A stretch of 63,358 bases of DNA, from positions 1 through 63,358 of the forward strand of contig JAGBBX010000047.1 of NCBI GenBank assembly GCA_017938245.1, given 5' to 3'. Numbering within the stretch: position 1 is the stretch's first letter; every line of letters starts with the position of its first letter. Of this stretch, positions 49,103 to 60,361 are shown piece after piece. The translations under genes and the position numbers were made by a program. The notes under the pieces are model-generated. The model was not told where the DNA came from. It made no database searches and worked only from the letters and a program-made list of their open reading frames with translations. The stretch comes from Bacteroidaceae bacterium (lineage in GTDB: Bacteria > Bacteroidota > Bacteroidia > Bacteroidales > Bacteroidaceae).

Positions 49103-49271
49103 AGATATTAGTGATGATTATTGAGTTTTCTTCCTCGTTCCACTTGTGCATAAAAAGTCGGTAATCCGTCTTTAGCTGACGGATTACACGATTCTGAATG
49201 ATTTGATAATAGATTGTTCCCTCCTTGTGTGCTGTTGTCGAGGGTCGGAACTTTACCTTGATACTTGACAT
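49103..49271 (-). pseudogene. Truncated tyrosine integrase, N-terminal arm-binding domain only
   Basis: The minus-strand frame from ATG 49271 begins MSSIKVKFRPSTTAHKEGTI and continues YYQIIQNRVIRQLKTDYRLF, which is the N-terminal arm-DNA-binding domain of Bacteroidetes mobile-element integrases. After about 55 residues it runs into the 3' end of the nuclease-helicase gene, where the frame is only the antisense of that gene. The core-binding and catalytic domains are missing, so it cannot be a working recombinase. It follows the portal-like gene by 53 bp in the same direction. Confidence 0.75.
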
Positions 49272-49324: not shown

Positions 49325-51253
49325 CTATTGCACTGCGTTGTTTGGCGCTTCTTCGGCAAGTTGTTCCAAGAGTTCCGTTGGTATACCCTGCATAGGTTGG
49401 TTATTGGCAACCTGTTCTTCATTACGTTTTATTGCTTCGAGTATCTTCTTGGCAAACGGATAACTGCTGTTTTCGAGCATAGTCTTTACATCAAGAGCTT
49501 GTGCCTGGAAGAGCTGCATTAAGAAATCATTTGCCAGCATCTGATAGGCGGGTGTGTTATACCCCTCGCTGAGTGTAAGGTCGAACTCGCTGTTACGTAC
49601 CTTCTGCGGCGAGTACCAACGCGACTCCTCGGCATATTCACTGCCGGCAATATCGAGGTAGCGTTCATCGGTGTAATACTGCTGTATCATCTTCAAGAGT
49701 TTTGTATCGCGACGACGGCGGAATGCACGGAAACTATCGAAAAGTCCACGTAAATTCAATGAAGAGTTTTGCACCTGTTGCGCATAAAGGCTTGCCGGGG
49801 TGCCGGCCTTAGGCGCTTGTCCTTGCATAGCCGAGTTTACTCCGGAAATTTCGTTTATAAGACGCAGTTGCAGATTCAACAGTTCAAAATCTCCTGCCAC
49901 AGCTGCACCGCTGTTATACTGTCGCACTACTCCATCGATACTCTGTCCGGGTTTCAGACGCACAAACAGCACTCCATTATATCGCACATACTCATCGATA
50001 ACCTCTTCGCGCGACATACTCTCGAAAGCCTCATCATCGACAACAAGAACTCCTTTTGACGATGTTCCACGAATAAAATCGATGAGAGTAGCGGTGCGGT
50101 TTATTGCTCTTTGCTGGTCGATGAACTGCTCGACAAAATTGCCCAATCGTCCCTGCACCATCGGATAGAGATGAAGTACATAGTTGTGCTCGCTGTGCCA
50201 ATAGGGGCTGCGTCCCTCTTGCAGGACATCGCCCATAGGCGACATATAACGATAATACCAATAGCGTTCGATGGCAAACTCGTACTCTACTCCAAGAAAA
50301 TCCTCCTCGGCAACTCCACTTTGCAGTGCCTGCTCGCGACGGCGGCGATTGGTCTCTTCGAGCAGCAGGCGACTGTCATCGTTATATGGCAGATAGCCCC
50401 ACGTTCCGTGCAGTGTATCGTTCCAACGATAGCTGTCGCGCGACTCCAATTTCCATCCGAGGATTACGCGGCACAGGTCGCTTCGCGATGGAGAATAGAA
50501 TGTCAATGTCTGTGTCTCGTCGCCCTGCATAGCACGGCTGTCGATATAGCGGTTCTCGGCCTCGCCATAAATCTCCATTATTCGCTTTTTTTTCTCAGGT
50601 GTATCACCAAAATGGGCAAGAACGTCGTCTAACGACATATCGAATAGCTCTCCAATGCAGGTTATATCCCACATACGCACATCCTCGAGATTGGTATTGA
50701 AGAAAAGGCGCGAAGGATTGACACCATAAACCCAGACATCGCGTTTATCTTTCGATGAATTCTCGCCATACTCGATACGTTGTGCAGTCATTCCGCCATT
50801 GAGCAACATACGCATAGAGTCGGAATCGAGTTCTTCGAGTTCATTTATGTCGTGTACATATTCCACTGCGATGGACATCATCTCACCAAGCATCGACTCA
50901 TTACTGTCTCGTGCCACACAGATGGGACGCATAAGATTCTGTCGCAGCTGACCGTCAATATTACTAAGTATAGGTGCAATCATATTGTTCTTTAGCGGCA
51001 CCTTTCCATTTTTCTTTATAAGGTCTCCCTCGGTTATATAAGCCGACGAATCGGGGTCGCGAACATAGTCGCCCCATTGGTCACCGTAGCTATACATAAG
51101 GCTCCGTCGCAGCTTGCGACGGGCCTCTTCGAGGGAGTTCCAACAAGCTGCACACTCGTCGAGAAAATCGACTGCCGAGCCTGTCCGAGCATTCTCGCAT
51201 CTCTTTTCCTGAGCGGGCGAGGGTTTCACTCTACGATTAAGGAACTTGTTCAT
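49325..51253 (-). CDS. Phage portal-like protein
   Basis: A 642-residue protein with the features of podovirus-type portals (P22/crAss-like group). It starts with a basic region and an acidic helical segment, then NNMIAPILSNIDGQLRQNLMRP, a long mixed region with many aromatic residues (YWYYRYMSPMGDVLQ), the wing/stem-like HLYPMVQGRLGNFVEQFIDQQRAINR, and a Gln-rich helical C-terminus (NEEQVANNQPMQG). The frame is uninterrupted. A portal forms the DNA gate of a capsid; here no capsid or terminase gene is found. Last complete gene of a minus-strand set starting at 56732. The assignment rests on pattern and context. Confidence 0.65.
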   Translation of the reverse strand: MNKFLNRRVKPSPAQEKRCENARTGSAVDFLDECAACWNSLEEARRKLRRSLMYSYGDQWGDYVRDPDSSAYITEGDLIKKNGKVPLKNNMIAPILSNIDGQLRQNLMRPICVARDSNESMLGEMMSIAVEYVHDINELEELDSDSMRMLLNGGMTAQRIEYGENSSKDKRDVWVYGVNPSRLFFNTNLEDVRMWDITCIGELFDMSLDDVLAHFGDTPEKKKRIMEIYGEAENRYIDSRAMQGDETQTLTFYSPSRSDLCRVILGWKLESRDSYRWNDTLHGTWGYLPYNDDSRLLLEETNRRRREQALQSGVAEEDFLGVEYEFAIERYWYYRYMSPMGDVLQEGRSPYWHSEHNYVLHLYPMVQGRLGNFVEQFIDQQRAINRTATLIDFIRGTSSKGVLVVDDEAFESMSREEVIDEYVRYNGVLFVRLKPGQSIDGVVRQYNSGAAVAGDFELLNLQLRLINEISGVNSAMQGQAPKAGTPASLYAQQVQNSSLNLRGLFDSFRAFRRRRDTKLLKMIQQYYTDERYLDIAGSEYAEESRWYSPQKVRNSEFDLTLSEGYNTPAYQMLANDFLMQLFQAQALDVKTMLENSSYPFAKKILEAIKRNEEQVANNQPMQGIPTELLEQLAEEAPNNAVQ

Positions 51254-51292
51254 ACTTAAATAGTTTTTCTTAGTTTTAGGATTAGAAACTGT

Positions 51293-54200
51293 TTATTTTT
51301 GCTGAGCCTCTTCTATCTTTCTTGATAGTTCTCGTAGTCTCTCTTCAACTTCGTTCAATGGTTTCGTTTCATCTTTAGCGGCAGCCTCACTCGTTTGCTC
51401 TTTCTTTTGGTGTTTAGTTTTTTGGTTATCGTATCTGCTTCTTAAATAATCGTATCTCGAACCAACACCATATTCATTATTAATATCTGCTGCAATCTCT
51501 TCTATACTGCGTCCGCTGTGGTATTCATATTCGGGGAGTGTATAAGAAGGAACTTCGGATACAAATCCTCTCTCTCTTTCGACCTCGCGAAGAGTCTTGG
51601 CACCATTCTCGCGAGGAGGATTTTGCAGGACCTCTTTTATAAGGTCTATAGGGCCGCCAAGGAACTTTTTTAGTTCACGAGTACTTCCTGCATAGTTGCG
51701 CAACGATTCACCACTATCGTCGTACCATCTTAGTTTAACATTTTTATTGATAAAGTCCTCTAGTTCGGGATAGAGTTTTAGGAAATCCTCGACATCTACA
51801 CCATACTTCATTTTAAAATCCTCTTTAATTAGTTCGGCAATTCTGGGATTTGAACCTAATTGCGGATTCCCCGATTTATCATAATTCTGGAGAGCTTTAT
51901 TGTAGGCCATCACTGCATTAAGTATAGTTTTATGTTTACCAATGGAATTAACCACTCCACTTTCAATACTATGAATAACGTGCTGCATTGTATAATAGAG
52001 TTCATCCTTAAACAAAGGGTCGGCGAAACCTTTCTTGTCTACAAGAAGACGTTTATTCTGAATGTCATAAACAGCGTAACGACCATTTAACTTACAAAAT
52101 GTTACAGGCATATCGGCTATTTCGGGGTAGGATTTAAACAAAAGCCAGTCGTACAGAATGTCGTTAACTTTAGCCGAGGCATCATAGTCTGTGGCTGTCT
52201 GACGAGAGTGTTCAAGAAAATTCTCGTCCTCTTTGGTACGCTCGCCCGCCGGTTTGTTTTTTAACTCATTATAGTAATATGCCAGCCGTGGATTTTTCAG
52301 ACGAAGAGTGCGGTAGACATAATCGTAGACTTTTATTCTGTCTATGACATCTACTGCATTCATAAACCATTTACCCGATTCATCCTGGGTTCGCCATCCG
52401 AAATCTTTAGCGACATTATCCATACTCCAATATTCTTTCTTTTTTATGGCATCATAATACCTATTCAAATTATAATAAGGTAGGTTGCCCATTCGTTTAA
52501 TACCTTTATGACCATAATCGCGGTATCTGAATTGGTCAAGGTCTATATCGCCATACATTCTGCGTTTGAAATCGTGGAACCCAGAATGCAGTCCGTCGAG
52601 ATTAGGGTTATCTTTCATATCTCTGATGTAGCGTCCAAAGGCTACTCCCTCGTTGCCATATCCACCGTCGCGACGTGCCGCAGTCTCGAAAGGACGGAAT
52701 GCCTCACTACGGTAACTATCGTAGGAGCGGCGTTTTGCCATTGCATTGTGGTGACGACGTATGAGGGAGAGAATATCCGATTCATTTAGCTCGCCATTGT
52801 AAATATTATATCGTTGCAGCATCTCGCGCACAAAATCACAGAAGCGTTTGAGGATATTACGCTGTTCGGGAGTATTCTCGACGCGTTCGGTGAGAATGGC
52901 AAGATACTCGTCGGTGCCGGCGTGATGCGAGCGTCCTTTTCGCTCGGCTTGATAATCGATGGCAGCACGAACCTCCTTACTGCCACGTCGATATACCTCC
53001 TCGAGAAAATCATAGTAATAGTACCCGAATAGCTCGGAGAACCCCTTGTGTCCCACAACCTCGTGAAGCACAGTTTTACGCACCTCGGCAATATTCTGGT
53101 TATTAGGCAGATTTATAACAACTCTTCCTGTACCCTCATCATACCATCCACAAGAGCGTACCTTATAGAAATACTCCGGGTCGGATGTCTCAATCTGACT
53201 CTCGTCGGTGATAACTTCGATACTGTTCCCAAATTTATCTCCCATACGCTGTGCTTCTATTGCCATACGGTCGATGTCCTTAGGAGTGTGACGGTGTTTG
53301 TTGGGATTCCACACGTATATTTCGTCCCAATCGGCCGGTTTATATACACCGTCTGAAAAAAGTCCGAACTGCTCGCTGAAAGTTGGTATAGAGCCTTTGT
53401 TCATCTTGGTACCTGTTCTTATTACCATATCGCGATAGTCAAGATTTTCCTGTTCCTTCAGTTGGCTGTTTCCCAATCCTGCGTATGTGTTATTTACATC
53501 TGCTAGTTCGTTGGCACGCTCCTTTGAGACGCCCGAGTGAAGATTTTTCACCTCCTCTTCCATAAGCTTCTCATATTTGTTAAGTGCCATATTTTCATCC
53601 TTAGAACAGTAGTACCAGGGTTTATCTATCGCCCCAAGAAGGCTGCCCTCGTTCAGATTATACTCCTGTTCGAGCGAGCGGCGAATAGAGTGCAGCATCT
53701 GCCCCACCTCGCTGTCGGAATAGTTGGAGCGGTGCAGAATCTCATCGAGCATACCTTGCTCCTCGGCCGAGATATTTTCTTTCTTTGCTTTACGATACAT
53801 AACATCGGAGAGATAGTCGATATCGGTACCGGTTTCTCGTGCATACGCTCCTGCCTGACGCAAAAAGTTCTGTGAGTCGTAACTTTGTAACAATGCTCTC
53901 TCGTGCGATGCGATTCTGTTGCGACGCAAATTCCCAAGAAGACCGAAATAGGTGCTTTTGAGTTCCTCGCGACTACTGCACTTCACGGTCTCAATAGGCT
54001 GTCCTTCGGCATCAAATGTCGATAAAGTAAAACTATCATCCCCTTTTGTATCGACCCGATAGTCTACAGCCTCGGGAGGGGTAGAGGTTAGTTTATTCTC
54101 GACAATATAAAGTAATTTTGAGCGCGTTGATGCCGATAAGCCTGAGGTTGACATTAGCTTTATATAATCCTCTCTTACCTGTTCGGCTGCTTTTCCACTA

Positions 54201-55717
54201 CCCTTTTGATAAACATTAAATGATTTCTCGAGATTGGCAACGAACTCTTCGGGTGCGACACCTGCCTTTGCCATCTCGCTCTGCTCGGGGATAGAGAAAC
54301 GCAGTTCGCTTTTTAGACGACCCACTGTATTTAGTTTATTAGATGCTCCCGATGGACGCCAATGGAACATTCGCATAGCAAGAATAGTTGCAAAACTGTC
54401 GCCAAAATCATTTACCAGGTCGATGGGTTCAATGCTCACCCCTTCGAGCATTTTTGCCGACTCGGTAGATGCTGTAAACACTGCCGACTCGGCGCCCAAT
54501 ATTCCGGCAGATGCCATCAGGCGTTTACCTCCGGTTAGTCCGCGTGCGGCGTGTCGCAAAGGAGTACCCACAATGCCCAATGCAGCACCTGTTGAATATC
54601 CCTTTCCAAATGCCGACATAGCCGAAGAGACATCGGGATTCTCGCCATACAAGATATCATCGACCACGCTATGCGCTGCATCGTATGTACCCAATGTCAA
54701 TCCTTGCGTCATAGCACTCTGCGCAATTTTTGTCTTAAGGCTGCCAAGAATAGCATTTTTGGCTGTTTGTTCAGCCATTTCGCGTGTAAGGCCTTTTGCT
54801 ATCATTCGGTTCGTTGCGTTCTTTAACAACATACCGGTGGCTTTTCCTGTAAACTGCGAGGTCACTGTACCAATTCCTGCAAACAAAGCGCTATCGAACA
54901 GCAGTCCACCTACACCTGCAGCTATACGTTCGCCACGCGAAGGGTTATAACGCTCCATTGCCATATCGTCGATATACATATGTGAAGAACCTTTGTAACC
55001 ATAATGGCGCATATCCGATAGAGAACCCATAAGCGAATTGCGTCGTACCCCCCTAAAGAAATACTCGGCTCCGCTTTTAGGTTTTTTCTCCTCGACAATT
55101 TCGTCAATAGCCCTCTGACGCAATGCCGGCTCAAGAACCTGCTTACGATATTCTTTGGCATCGATGCCTGCATAATGTGCATAGCGCTCGGCAATAGCAT
55201 CGAGACGGTCATCGTCGAGTGCGGATATTGTGGTATCTATTGTAGCAACAGGGTCTACTCTCTCATTCATAGATGCAAGGGCAAGCGACGCATTGGCACC
55301 GGGCACGCTCGCATAACTCTTGTATACCTCTATACCGGTTTCATCGGCTTTTGCACGTTGTTTCTTCCAGTTAGGGGTAAAAGTCTCTTTATAATAATCG
55401 TTAATGGCTTCGTCGACCACCTCGGGAGTGGTTACAAACTGCAGACGTCGACGTTCCTCGGTGTTTTTGGGGACAAGGAAATTTTTCTGACTCTCTTTGA
55501 AGTAATTGTTCATAGTATTATTATCCAAAGAGTCGAAATATTTGTTTTTCTGTTTAAGTTGCTGTTCCGAGGCAAGCATATCATCGGCAAGTCCTGCCAC
55601 GTACTCCCTGTCCTCGGCACTCATACCACCGCCTGCTCCCGGCATATAATCTATTTTCCATCTGTTTTTTTTGCCATCATCAAACAGCAAGCCATTTTTC
55701 TCATCGTTGTTTTTCAT
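51293..55717 (-). CDS. Giant phage polyvalent/ejection-like protein with metallopeptidase motif
   Basis: A 1474-residue uninterrupted protein. Residues 1-260 are charged and helical. Residues about 265-420 are Gly/Ala-rich and partly hydrophobic (GVGGLLFDSALFAGIGTVTS), as in phage proteins that enter the host membrane. Residues about 860-950 hold a zincin-like site: KTVLHEVVGHKGFSELFG (HEVVGH at 885-890) with a possible third ligand in DEYLAILTE near 937. A further His-rich segment (YYTMQHVIHSIESG) occurs near 1260, and the end is a coiled coil (NEVEERLRELSRKIEEAQ). This resembles large polyvalent proteins of phages and mobile elements, injected with the DNA. The exact function is unknown. 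It is located between two small genes and the portal-like gene. Confidence 0.55.
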   Translation of the reverse strand: MKNNDEKNGLLFDDGKKNRWKIDYMPGAGGGMSAEDREYVAGLADDMLASEQQLKQKNKYFDSLDNNTMNNYFKESQKNFLVPKNTEERRRLQFVTTPEVVDEAINDYYKETFTPNWKKQRAKADETGIEVYKSYASVPGANASLALASMNERVDPVATIDTTISALDDDRLDAIAERYAHYAGIDAKEYRKQVLEPALRQRAIDEIVEEKKPKSGAEYFFRGVRRNSLMGSLSDMRHYGYKGSSHMYIDDMAMERYNPSRGERIAAGVGGLLFDSALFAGIGTVTSQFTGKATGMLLKNATNRMIAKGLTREMAEQTAKNAILGSLKTKIAQSAMTQGLTLGTYDAAHSVVDDILYGENPDVSSAMSAFGKGYSTGAALGIVGTPLRHAARGLTGGKRLMASAGILGAESAVFTASTESAKMLEGVSIEPIDLVNDFGDSFATILAMRMFHWRPSGASNKLNTVGRLKSELRFSIPEQSEMAKAGVAPEEFVANLEKSFNVYQKGSGKAAEQVREDYIKLMSTSGLSASTRSKLLYIVENKLTSTPPEAVDYRVDTKGDDSFTLSTFDAEGQPIETVKCSSREELKSTYFGLLGNLRRNRIASHERALLQSYDSQNFLRQAGAYARETGTDIDYLSDVMYRKAKKENISAEEQGMLDEILHRSNYSDSEVGQMLHSIRRSLEQEYNLNEGSLLGAIDKPWYYCSKDENMALNKYEKLMEEEVKNLHSGVSKERANELADVNNTYAGLGNSQLKEQENLDYRDMVIRTGTKMNKGSIPTFSEQFGLFSDGVYKPADWDEIYVWNPNKHRHTPKDIDRMAIEAQRMGDKFGNSIEVITDESQIETSDPEYFYKVRSCGWYDEGTGRVVINLPNNQNIAEVRKTVLHEVVGHKGFSELFGYYYYDFLEEVYRRGSKEVRAAIDYQAERKGRSHHAGTDEYLAILTERVENTPEQRNILKRFCDFVREMLQRYNIYNGELNESDILSLIRRHHNAMAKRRSYDSYRSEAFRPFETAARRDGGYGNEGVAFGRYIRDMKDNPNLDGLHSGFHDFKRRMYGDIDLDQFRYRDYGHKGIKRMGNLPYYNLNRYYDAIKKKEYWSMDNVAKDFGWRTQDESGKWFMNAVDVIDRIKVYDYVYRTLRLKNPRLAYYYNELKNKPAGERTKEDENFLEHSRQTATDYDASAKVNDILYDWLLFKSYPEIADMPVTFCKLNGRYAVYDIQNKRLLVDKKGFADPLFKDELYYTMQHVIHSIESGVVNSIGKHKTILNAVMAYNKALQNYDKSGNPQLGSNPRIAELIKEDFKMKYGVDVEDFLKLYPELEDFINKNVKLRWYDDSGESLRNYAGSTRELKKFLGGPIDLIKEVLQNPPRENGAKTLREVERERGFVSEVPSYTLPEYEYHSGRSIEEIAADINNEYGVGSRYDYLRSRYDNQKTKHQKKEQTSEAAAKDETKPLNEVEERLRELSRKIEEAQQK

Positions 55718-55732
55718 AGTAATAGTTTTTTA

Positions 55733-55748
55733 GTGTTACGATTTTATC
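55733..55748 (-). repeat. 16-bp motif ahead of the giant gene (copy 1)
   Basis: Plus-strand GTGTTACGATTTTATC; the same motif with one change is at 56783-56798. Each lies 15-70 bp upstream of a phage-island gene start. Confidence 0.35.
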
Positions 55749-56193
55749 CATTTATTTTATTCTTCAGTACTCTACCCCAACGCGATAGATTTCTATTTGC
55801 CGACACAACATCGGACGAGTATCTTTTTGCGAAATTGTTGGCATATCCTTTCAAAGATGATTGCTGCTTGCCAACCGTAGGCATCGTCTCATTAGCCGAT
55901 GATGGGTTACCCGATTCTATTATATTTTTAAAAGCGAGTTCGGCCATAAGTGCATTATAGTTACGTTGTGCCGTCGCCCTATTCTCACGCGCACCAAGCA
56001 ACCTGTTGCTTTCGGTGGTTGCCATATTTGTTCCCATAGCATATCGGGCACCTTTACTGCGGGCATACATTGATGCCAAATTCGTTAGGCTGTCGGCAAC
56101 GAGCATTGCCGAGTGTCGACGCCGGGCACTCTTCTCTCTCTGCTTCTCGAAATCGGCCATAGATTCCAATCTCTTTTTTTCTCTCTCGTACAT
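55744..56193 (-). CDS. Small phage-island protein, basic N-terminus
   Basis: A 149-residue protein I cannot assign to a named family. It begins with a highly charged stretch (YEREKKRLESMADFEKQREKS), continues with an Ala-rich helical part (about residues 30-90, ARSKGARYAMGTNMATTESNR) and ends in a basic tail (NLSRWGRVLKNKING). The composition is like small internal virion or ejection proteins. It is 17 bp after the upstream island gene and 26 bp before the giant gene, so co-expression is nearly certain. Confidence 0.6.
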   Translation of the reverse strand: MYEREKKRLESMADFEKQREKSARRRHSAMLVADSLTNLASMYARSKGARYAMGTNMATTESNRLLGARENRATAQRNYNALMAELAFKNIIESGNPSSANETMPTVGKQQSSLKGYANNFAKRYSSDVVSANRNLSRWGRVLKNKING

Positions 56194-56210
56194 ATTATTA
56201 TCTTTAATGG

Positions 56211-56732
56211 TTATTTCTCTTTACCCCAATTTACACCTAAAAGAGCATTGTTAAGCAAACCAAAACCTTGCTCGGCAGCTTGCGCGCCTGCCTGCTCCTG
56301 CATTCTGAGGTCTTGTAGTTGATTATTACGCAACGACGATATATTCTGCTGATGGATAGAATCTATCCTGCTTTTGTTGGCGCTATCCTGCGCCGCCAAT
56401 CCTGTAGCTACGTTACTCAACTGCTCCACTCCTTGACGATTACGTGCAAGTTCCAACTCGGGTGTTACACCATTCACAGCTGCATATCCCCGGTTTTGTT
56501 TGTTCTGCGAATGAAGCGTCTTTTCGACCCTTTTAAGAGCAGCTCTAGCCATTGACGAATTCATATAATCGCCATAATAATTACGTTTGTACCACGCCGA
56601 TTCCGAGGCTTTTGCCTCGTTAAGCAATTTCCTTTGCTTACGAGCAGCCCGCTGTGCATCGAACATTCCTTTCACTCCCGACACAAGCCCCATTGCAGCA
56701 CTTGCGCCACCAATAATTTTACTTAGTATCAT
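56211..56732 (-). CDS. Small internal-virion-like protein, first gene of the phage island
   Basis: A 173-residue protein starting with a Gly/Ala-rich hydrophobic segment (MILSKIIGGASAAMGLVSGV), then a basic helical stretch (DAQRAARKQRKLLNEAKASE) and a Gln/Asn-rich helical remainder. This layout recalls T7 gp14-like and related podovirus ejection proteins, but no signature is decisive. The ATG at 56732 is used; a GTG at 56756 would add 8 residues. It is the first gene of the minus-strand island transcript and is divergent from the small gene at 56896. Confidence 0.55.
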   Translation of the reverse strand: MILSKIIGGASAAMGLVSGVKGMFDAQRAARKQRKLLNEAKASESAWYKRNYYGDYMNSSMARAALKRVEKTLHSQNKQNRGYAAVNGVTPELELARNRQGVEQLSNVATGLAAQDSANKSRIDSIHQQNISSLRNNQLQDLRMQEQAGAQAAEQGFGLLNNALLGVNWGKEK

Positions 56733-56782
56733 TTTGTATGGTTTTAAAATTTCCACAAAAGAAATAACCCGAGAAGGAGTTT

Positions 56783-56798
56783 GTGTTGCGATTTTATC
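56783..56798 (-). repeat. 16-bp motif ahead of the island's first gene (copy 2)
   Basis: GTGTTGCGATTTTATC on the plus strand, 15 of 16 identical to 55733-55748. Confidence 0.35.
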
Positions 56799-56859
56799 AC
56801 TAAGTGATTGTTAAACAAGATTATAACAGATTCGCAACCATAAAAAGATAATGCACTGT

Positions 56860-56867
56860 TATATTTG
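56860..56867 (+). promoter_or_regulatory. -7 element of the small helical gene
   Basis: TATATTTG about 30 bp before the ATG at 56896; no good -33 box is seen. Confidence 0.45.
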
Positions 56868-56895
56868 CACATTAAATACTTACAACTAAACAACT

Positions 56896-57150
56896 ATGGC
56901 AAAGAAGAATATCAGTAAGGTAACAATCAGCGATGTGCACAACGAGACACTTGCGCTATTTCATCGTCTTATACGGCGATTAGAGAAATTGACACACAAT
57001 TGTGAAGACCCCGGGACAATTAATCAGGCACTTAAAACTACAGCCGATTTTCTTGTGAAACTGAATAAAGAGAAGGAACACGACGATGATAGTCTCGGCA
57101 TACTGCTGCGTCAGACACTTAACGGAGTCGACGAAGATTATTCGCAATAA
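56896..57150 (+). CDS. Small helical protein, unknown
   Basis: An 84-residue cytoplasmic protein with two predicted helices and an acidic C-terminus (KEKEHDDDSLGILLRQTLNGVDEDYSQ). It has no recognised motif. It is transcribed away from the phage-island genes with its own -7 element and a perfect palindromic terminator. Position suggests it belongs to the island, for example as a regulator or small packaging-type protein, but nothing in the sequence proves that. Confidence 0.6.
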   Translation: MAKKNISKVTISDVHNETLALFHRLIRRLEKLTHNCEDPGTINQALKTTADFLVKLNKEKEHDDDSLGILLRQTLNGVDEDYSQ

Positions 57151-60286: not shown

Positions 60287-60287
60287 G

Positions 60288-60361
60288 TGATCTCGGCAGG
60301 GTTCAAACCTGCAACCTTCTGATCCGTAGTCAGATGCTCTATTCAGTTGAGCTACGAGACC
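60288..60361 (-). tRNA. tRNA-Arg (anticodon ACG)
   Basis: The minus-strand cloverleaf is complete: acceptor stem GGTCTCG/CGAGATC, D arm GCTC...GAGC, anticodon stem TCTGA/TCAGA with loop CTACGGA (anticodon ACG, read as ICG), and T arm GCAGG-TTTGAAC-CCTGC. The discriminator base is A and CCA is not encoded. It has its own promoter and terminator. Confidence 0.96.

Follow-up and report, generated by a model that had tools for sequence, protein, structure and literature searches.

A two-block, podovirus-derived system in a Bacteroidaceae genus that likely works like a gene transfer agent

The stretch of DNA analysed here, called the window throughout, comprises 63,358 nucleotides of a Bacteroidaceae bacterium (assembly GCA_017938245.1, contig JAGBBX010000047.1) and carries a cassette of portal and ejection-like genes. 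The best explanation for this cassette is that it is one block (block A) of a two-block domesticated podovirus that is inherited largely with the chromosome, the second (block B) lying on another contig, C63, of the same genome (G000). We consider it very probable that the system is a domesticated DNA-packaging virion that works as a gene transfer agent (GTA) or close to one, and within the literature searched it is new both as a lineage and in its gene content. We also lean, with clearly less confidence, towards a wider reading, in which Bacteroidales have made GTAs twice independently from one family of podoviruses with giant ejection proteins, once in the genus of the window and once in an older lineage of at least six families, whose kit sits at two or three sites up to ~340 kb apart. 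The operons of the genus would be tied by one box, probably phage-derived, and the second lineage could have a separate one.

The genes of the cassette, with the remains of an integrase beside them, are as follows.

49325..51253, minus strand: portal, 642 aa, last gene of the block A operon
51293..55717, minus strand: polyvalent/ejection protein, 1474 aa
55744..56193, minus strand: small protein of 149 aa, putative internal virion protein by position
56211..56756, minus strand: small protein of 181 aa, putative internal virion/ejection protein, first gene of the operon, with a GTG start (alternative shorter start, ATG at 56732)
56896..57150, plus strand: gene for an 84-aa protein, divergent from the operon, putative packaging factor
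49113..49271, minus strand: integrase stub, of which the N-terminal ~53 residues are left

An earlier note on this stretch had described the portal, the polyvalent protein and the two small proteins as an intact minus-strand operon with a small divergent gene, next to a broken integrase, and the open reading frames (ORFs) of the window bear this out, with all five cassette ORFs uninterrupted. The portal matches Pfam P22_portal (1.7e-38), PHROG 156 (portal, 2.6e-58) and, by profile, the solved portal PDB 8jov (1.3e-18). Neither small protein has a significant family in Pfam or PHROG. The label of ejection-like that they had received is backed for the 181-aa protein by homologues at the equivalent position in two prophages (36% identity in G009:C6 and 28% in G055), with further profile matches in other Bacteroidales families, and follows for the 149-aa protein from its position. 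The 45-55 alignable residues of the integrase stub are 60-80% identical to integrase N-termini in five other genomes of the genus.

The same note had reported that no capsid or terminase gene was present. This holds for the window's contig, where profile searches with alignments of terminases and capsids from prophage relatives (A1, A2) found neither, and fails for the genome, which has one capsid and one terminase, both on C63; absence from the window is thus not absence from the genome, and a scan at the level of the window can mislead, as the missing half sat on another contig. Single Pfam models were discarded as a test, as Terminase_6N and SU10_MCP gave nothing in G000 and SU10_MCP gave nothing in control genomes either. 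Block B consists of 12 genes (C63:108950-120363), among them those for a fibre-like protein of 944 aa, the capsid, a scaffold-like protein and the terminase TerL. Both the cassette and block B are flanked on both sides by other genes, so the split is not an effect of contig ends.

TerL matches T4 gp17 by profile (1.6e-13), and K151, A152, R153, Q154, G156, S158, T159, E256, D457, E518, D619 and D620 (numbered after the first sequence of the alignment) are invariant in 34 sequences, phages included. With putative roles for these single residues, we regard an ATPase and nuclease function as plausible. The profile of the major capsid protein (MCP) matches the major capsid PDB 9in6 (1.5e-9). With the portal, TerL and MCP profiles, the head, portal and terminase genes in the chromosome are caudovirus-derived, as expected of a GTA. 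In the wider genus, 18 of 37 genomes have a neighbour of 210 aa that is an S24/CI-type repressor, and 28 of 37 have a holin-like protein of 157 aa, just above the Pfam cut-off. No replication gene was recognised among the genes scanned, which did not include every small gene, and neither was a toxin or immunity gene. An ORF listed as p268 proved to run antisense to the scaffold-like gene and was left out of the counts; TerS170/p138, p154/p170 and p128/p133 are overlapping names for identical genes.

The system is conserved throughout the genus, which we surveyed in 37 genomes (that of the window and 36 others) out of 44. One or both blocks are found in all 37 and both in 32, most of them without interruptions, with the portal in 34 and the GTA-type terminase and capsid in 35 each, once prophage matches in G015 are set aside. 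As a yardstick, the RNA-polymerase domain PF00562 (rpoB) was recovered in 29 of the 44 genomes and in 24 of these 37, so assembly gaps may explain the cases of a missing block. Nearly every species has a single copy per genome, and gene order inside the blocks is mostly constant. The distance between the blocks is not: they are adjacent in G018, ~1 kb apart in G030, and 7-9 kb apart, with atp genes between them, in G003, G004, G013, G019, G022, G029 and G035. In G002 the distance is 99 kb, and in G000, G009, G024 and G025 each block has its own contig, which extends beyond the block on both sides. In the remaining genomes the layout is cut by contig ends or one block is absent. Dispersal of the genes over several loci, with no replication gene recognised, is again what a GTA should present.

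The blocks also recur at one kind of chromosomal site, whose neighbours named by NCBIfam are ligA, dapA, TIGR02757, malic enzyme, ATP-synthase subunits and gamma carbonic anhydrase. In 18 genomes no more than 1 kb separates ligA from the portal, in 10 the 181-aa gene is 0.15-2.2 kb from atpG, and in 7, the window included, the cassette is within 0.6 kb of the gamma carbonic anhydrase gene. Among 40 relatives of the genus, 35 are labelled as coming from ruminant cecum, colon or rectum. In one genome (L108, G024:C18:61000-80900), even block B is in two pieces, as ~9 kb of other genes separate TerS from the scaffold-like gene.

The virion genes are under purifying selection, a further mark of a GTA. 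From pairs with a synonymous distance (dS) of 0.02-1.2, the median ratio of nonsynonymous to synonymous substitution (dN/dS), a check that the earlier note had proposed, is low: 0.092 for the portal (9 pairs), 0.059 for MCP (49), 0.067 for TerL (14) and 0.147 for the polyvalent protein (3), that is 0.06-0.15, compared with 0.050 for rpoB (115 pairs). For six smaller or fibre-like genes the medians are 0.087-0.244. The trees of genes from the two blocks also agree with each other. Over common genomes, the portal and MCP trees have 20 of 27 splits in common (shuffled mean 0.15) without strong conflict, and the portal and TerL trees 18 of 26 with one strong conflict; without pruning, the first pair has 18 of 27 splits in common and one conflict, and the second 18 of 26 and no conflict.

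A second link between the blocks is a promoter box, which in the window is accompanied by two related elements.

56824..56839, plus strand: 16-bp promoter box TAACAGATTCGCAACC, upstream of the 84-aa gene, with the same class of box before block B genes
56784..56799, minus strand: degenerate inverted copy of the box, facing the block A operon and one base off the searched pattern in G000; in 22 genomes the site before the 181-aa gene fits the pattern
56860..56867, plus strand: TATATTTG, of the form TAnnTTTG, before the 84-aa gene

This one element stands upstream of genes in both blocks, in block A as an inverted pair. The pattern T[GA]N[CT]AN5[GA]CAACC has 125 sites in 1.31 Mb of genus stretches, against a mean of 18 overall in order-1 shuffles, and 97 of them lie within 260 bp before five block genes: the scaffold-like/MCP genes (30 sites in 29 genomes), the 84-aa gene (26), the 181-aa gene (22), the p170 unit (18) and TerS (1). 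The counts for the scaffold-like and 84-aa genes arise partly by construction, as the pattern was written after inspecting their upstream regions, and so does that for the 181-aa gene, which has its intergenic region in common with the 84-aa gene; the p170 unit, with its box in 18 genomes, played no part in writing the pattern. The box typically stands 40-56 bp from the start of the 84-aa and 181-aa genes, ~39-52 bp from the p170 unit (one at 99 bp, among the genomes printed) and 23-117 bp from the scaffold-like gene, and there is an extra site by the TerS start in G013, G014, G031 and G036. We take TATATTTG to be a Bacteroidota-type -7 element; 19 of 30 genomes have a TAnnTTTG match in the 170 bp that precede the 84-aa gene, against 1.8 expected.

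Among viruses, 109 viral contigs are at background density for the box (0.178 against 0.213 per 10 kb), and it was not found in G009:C6, L226 or L257, while the viral contigs nearest to the genus have one-mismatch copies before TerS. The idea that the box marks domestication alone was dropped, since these nearest viral contigs carry it. Its distribution suggests that the box is probably an inherited phage promoter element, and the fact that the genus has kept it before blocks that lie apart still speaks for joint, working control.

The phage relatives of the system are compact. In the prophages G009:C6, G015:C128 and G055:C81 and in the Bacteroides phage BS-TP4, a giant polyvalent protein adjoins the portal, as in the window, and terminase and capsid lie near the portal; a 181-aa-type protein precedes the polyvalent protein in two relatives, and one contig starts too late to tell. 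This compact layout is the ancestral one. The window portal is 57% identical to that of G009:C6, 34% to that of BS-TP4 and 34-35% to those of BKO1-TP3 and BF1-TP2. When viral contigs were searched for portals with no query but the window protein, no relative came up. BS-TP4 and G009:C6 have homologous terminases and capsids, and differ from the window system in having a single compact locus, in being phage and prophage, and in their polyvalent proteins of 5391 and 4176 aa.

Length is the main variable of the polyvalent protein, which is found in 33 of the 37 genus genomes: 1105-1876 aa in 32 genus copies (one more match is cut at 174 aa), 755-864 aa in four copies from the second lineage, and 3373-5391 aa in the relatives from phage and prophages. 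The window protein has no Pfam match at E 1 and its best PHROG is phrog_14770 (2.6e-17), to which no function is assigned there; it is a shortened relative of the proteins of 3373-5391 aa. One motif within it stands out.

53048..53065, minus strand: HEVVGH codons (HExxxH), within the polyvalent gene

This motif, presumably metal-binding, is kept in all 32 aligned genus copies despite their mean amino acid distance of 0.64. The stricter form HExxGH occurs in 24 of 33 genus copies and also in G057, G341, G404, the 727-aa ORF of G061 and the prophage G009:C6, and was not found in the polyvalent proteins of BS-TP4, G015, G055 and G308.

When the search for the terminase was widened to 393 genomes of the order, it yielded 35 matches, spread over 16 of 207 genera, with none in five genomes from three other genera of the window's family. 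Portal and capsid were then searched in 35 genomes (31 of the terminase matches and four more genomes of the family of G057; G000 and three weak partial matches, G214, G291 and G351, were left out) and both are present in every one. In the family of G057, 9 of 9 genomes have portal and capsid. Gene modules recur across families. In genomes assembled in one or few contigs, the portal, capsid and TerL genes are dispersed, at 1.149, 1.395 and 1.427 Mb in G341, at 0.499, 0.837 and 0.931 Mb in G404, and at 2.773, 2.726 and 2.759 Mb in G308, respectively. The compact cases G055:C81, G061:C32 and G359:C123 look like prophages, and four genomes of family f26 are more distant; in one distant relative of that family (G284:C11), portal and capsid stand together and the terminase is ~0.95 Mb off.

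In FastTree phylogenies, eight genomes of families f22, f29, f60, f68, f88 and f109 form one virus-free clade for all three genes. An IQ-TREE phylogeny of TerL (46 sequences) supports the window's genus at 100/100 and this second lineage at 100/99, and rejects the union of the two (approximately unbiased test, p=6.9e-5). These trees include 9 of the 37 genus genomes and the eight of the second lineage, to which the IQ-TREE set adds 25 viral sequences, and the IQ-TREE model was LG+G4 without mixture; a warning about long branches applies to that result. The best reading of these trees is that the second dispersed set would be a separate domestication, in eight genomes of six other Bacteroidales families. 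In G061, 59.8 kb hold four copies of the 9-mer TATCGCATC, of which three stand 62-72 bp before the portal, p181 and scaffold-like genes (L364:9100, L365:11262 and L366:8075, in three stretches of that genome), a hint, from one genome, of another common box.

If the system works as we propose, one regulator would fire the boxes of both blocks in some cells, capsids would assemble, and TerL would fill them by headful packaging with chromosomal fragments, there being no viral genome any more for it to select. The holin-like protein and the S24-type repressor would, in many species, govern lysis and timing, the repressor tying the system to DNA damage. The fibre-like protein would bind the recipient, and the internal and polyvalent proteins would form a conduit through the envelope, passing DNA to kin.

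The closest known system in mechanism is, from the parts of its description covered, the FpGTA of Faecalibacterium, a podovirus-like gut GTA with two operons (~125 kb apart in one strain), the first of them present in 12 of 12 genomes, with terminase, portal, scaffold, capsid and holin genes and no replication genes identified (PMC12946183). It differs in its Gram-positive host and in that its particles of ~40 nm, with ~9 kb of packaged DNA, were shown, proteomics included, whereas ours is known from genes; a giant polyvalent protein and a promoter box go unmentioned in those parts of the paper (PMC12946183). The Rhodogtaviriformidae, the Bartogtaviriformidae and the GTA family of Brachyspira are described, in the parts covered, as caudoviricete-derived, chromosomal and vertically kept, with TerL and MCP distinct from those of phages (PMC9662315). 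They differ from our system by host (Alphaproteobacteria and Brachyspira) and are likened to it here by description. That paper evaluates three GTA groups and contains no word beginning with Bacteroid (PMC9662315). In the open-licence literature, covered by titles and abstract openings and with preprints outside its scope, we found no GTA reported for Bacteroidota or Bacteroidales.

Several observations weigh against a domesticated GTA. The system is known from its genes alone, from which we infer particles, packaged DNA and transfer; the scaffold, fibre and TerS names are putative and rest on position; the Walker A stretch of TerL reads GGST, compared with GKT in T4, as it also does in its phages; neither the holin homologue nor the repressor was found in the retrieved stretches of the window's genome; and the 40 relatives of the genus (Bacteroidaceae or Bacteroidales bacterium) are all metagenome-assembled genomes. 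Some block copies are interrupted, such as the TerL gene of G017 (L183, G017:C12:7393-9381) with one in-frame TGA. Other copies may still move: in G018 the blocks are contiguous (integrase-portal-...-TerL) beside an intact integrase, and integrases adjoin blocks also in G003, G016, G021, G031 and G036 (two of these cut by contig ends), which, with the window stub, brings integrase matches to 7 of the 37 genomes. The integrases of G018 and G031 (398 and 402 aa) lie directly downstream of the portal. The box, moreover, stands before the scaffold-like gene exactly in the viral contigs L255 (L255:4141) and L274 (4900, minus strand) and with one mismatch in L256; these three are close to the genus in the TerL tree and are either phages or domesticated copies.

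The weakest point of the case is the comparison with rpoB. Virion-gene and rpoB trees have 4-6 of 18-19 splits in common (shuffled mean ~0.2), with Mantel r of 0.37-0.77, over 20-22 common genomes (the Mantel test of the fibre-like gene had 16), and the virion-gene trees strongly contradict 3-5 of 9-10 strong rpoB splits (~9-10 with shuffled labels), so that descent is not purely vertical. Without G010, 0-2 are contradicted. In this genome (L198 for rpoB; L178 and L052 for the blocks), rpoB is nearest to G032 and the virion genes to G013, a mismatch that is either a bin mix-up or an exchange. We read the trees as suggesting mainly vertical inheritance with some exchange or mis-binning.

The odds of the alternatives overlap those of a GTA, as killing, or continued mobility in some species, would be compatible with a GTA-like particle. 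The alternative that survives best, though we hold it unlikely, is a domesticated killing particle that packages host DNA and kills relatives without transferring genes. PBSX of Bacillus subtilis, which we liken to our system by description only, is such a case in the parts of the source covered, a defective prophage that packages random host DNA of ~13 kb and acts like a bacteriocin, the packaged DNA not being transferred (PMC7667829). The same gene content would be kept in such a particle, and the mean amino acid distances of the fibre-like (0.57) and polyvalent (0.64) proteins are much larger than that of the capsid (0.17), as expected of a weapon that recognises its target. However, terminase, capsid and ejection genes are all kept, which is more than a killer that delivers nothing would seem to need, and the scanned genes yielded no toxin or immunity gene.

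Quite improbable, in our view, is that we are dealing with a genus-specific prophage family, mobile in some species, of which each genome happens to carry one integrated and at times rearranged copy, so that the apparent domestication is common lysogeny. The integrases beside the blocks, the contiguous G018 cluster, the partial conflict with rpoB and the box of the closest viral contigs would all fit this. Against it stand the single copy in nearly every species, the separated blocks, those 7-9 kb apart with atp genes between them included, the lack of a recognised replication gene among those scanned and the recurrent site beside ligA, atpG or the gamma carbonic anhydrase gene. Prophages of the family are sporadic in the genus (G009:C6 and G015:C128, plus an extra capsid match in G005). 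The marks of an active prophage, contiguity and an intact integrase, are present in G018, whose cluster sits at another chromosomal site; the window has the integrase stub, its capsid and terminase elsewhere, and no att-like direct repeats of at least 16 flanking the cassette. The earlier note would have given way before relatives with a full prophage at this site and an unconserved copy here; the copy is conserved, and G018, the contiguous case, is elsewhere.

Two further readings, both put forward in that note, can hardly be maintained. A decaying prophage or very recent deletion remnant would agree with the integrase stub and the few interrupted copies, and is contradicted by conservation over 37 of 37 genomes, low dN/dS and kept promoter boxes; a satellite borrowing the capsid and terminase of a helper would agree with a block A devoid of both, and is contradicted by G000 itself, which encodes a capsid and a terminase whose trees match that of the portal. 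Among the three options of the note, the domesticated delivery device is therefore the best supported, by its presence across the genus, purifying selection, recurrent site and shared boxes.

Gene clusters are known for few GTAs, which in the literature reached are those of Alphaproteobacteria, Brachyspira and Gram-positives, so that a GTA-like system of Bacteroidales would, if true, add a route of gene flow in animal guts. If both domestications are true, gene flow of the GTA type may be an everyday process in an order that is dominant among the bacteria of animal guts, and two domestications of one phage family would allow what was lost (the integrase in most genomes, and much of the polyvalent protein) to be compared with what was kept (portal, capsid and terminase). 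The shared box offers a handle on how separated operons fire together.

The 84-aa protein has 29 invariant residues across 27 copies, and its AlphaFold model is of three helices at low confidence (pLDDT 68.5, pTM 0.42). Its gene occupies the place held in other families by a gene of 82-101 aa directly upstream of terL (L348:8439-8690, L359:8975-9223, L365:10972-11220 and L099:10075-10380), possibly a small terminase; homology between the two was tried with BLASTP and hhalign, which found nothing. The extra capsid gene of G005 (L086, G005:C34:1820-3136) contains a stop and is perhaps a prophage remnant. The codon usage of the cassette fits the host (correlation of relative synonymous codon usage 0.865, compared with a mean of 0.871 for random host subsets). 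An anti-phage defence system is unsupported, as the five window proteins gave nothing against PADLOC-DB beyond weak matches of the polyvalent protein to two Csm2 models (0.003 and 0.0064), which we judged to be chance. Scans for sigma-70 promoters and terminators were near shuffled expectation (21 against 16.4, standard deviation 3.1, and 8 against 7.8). Finally, a tRNA-Arg(acg) gene lies at 60287-60361 on the minus strand, 3 kb past the cassette and away from its border.

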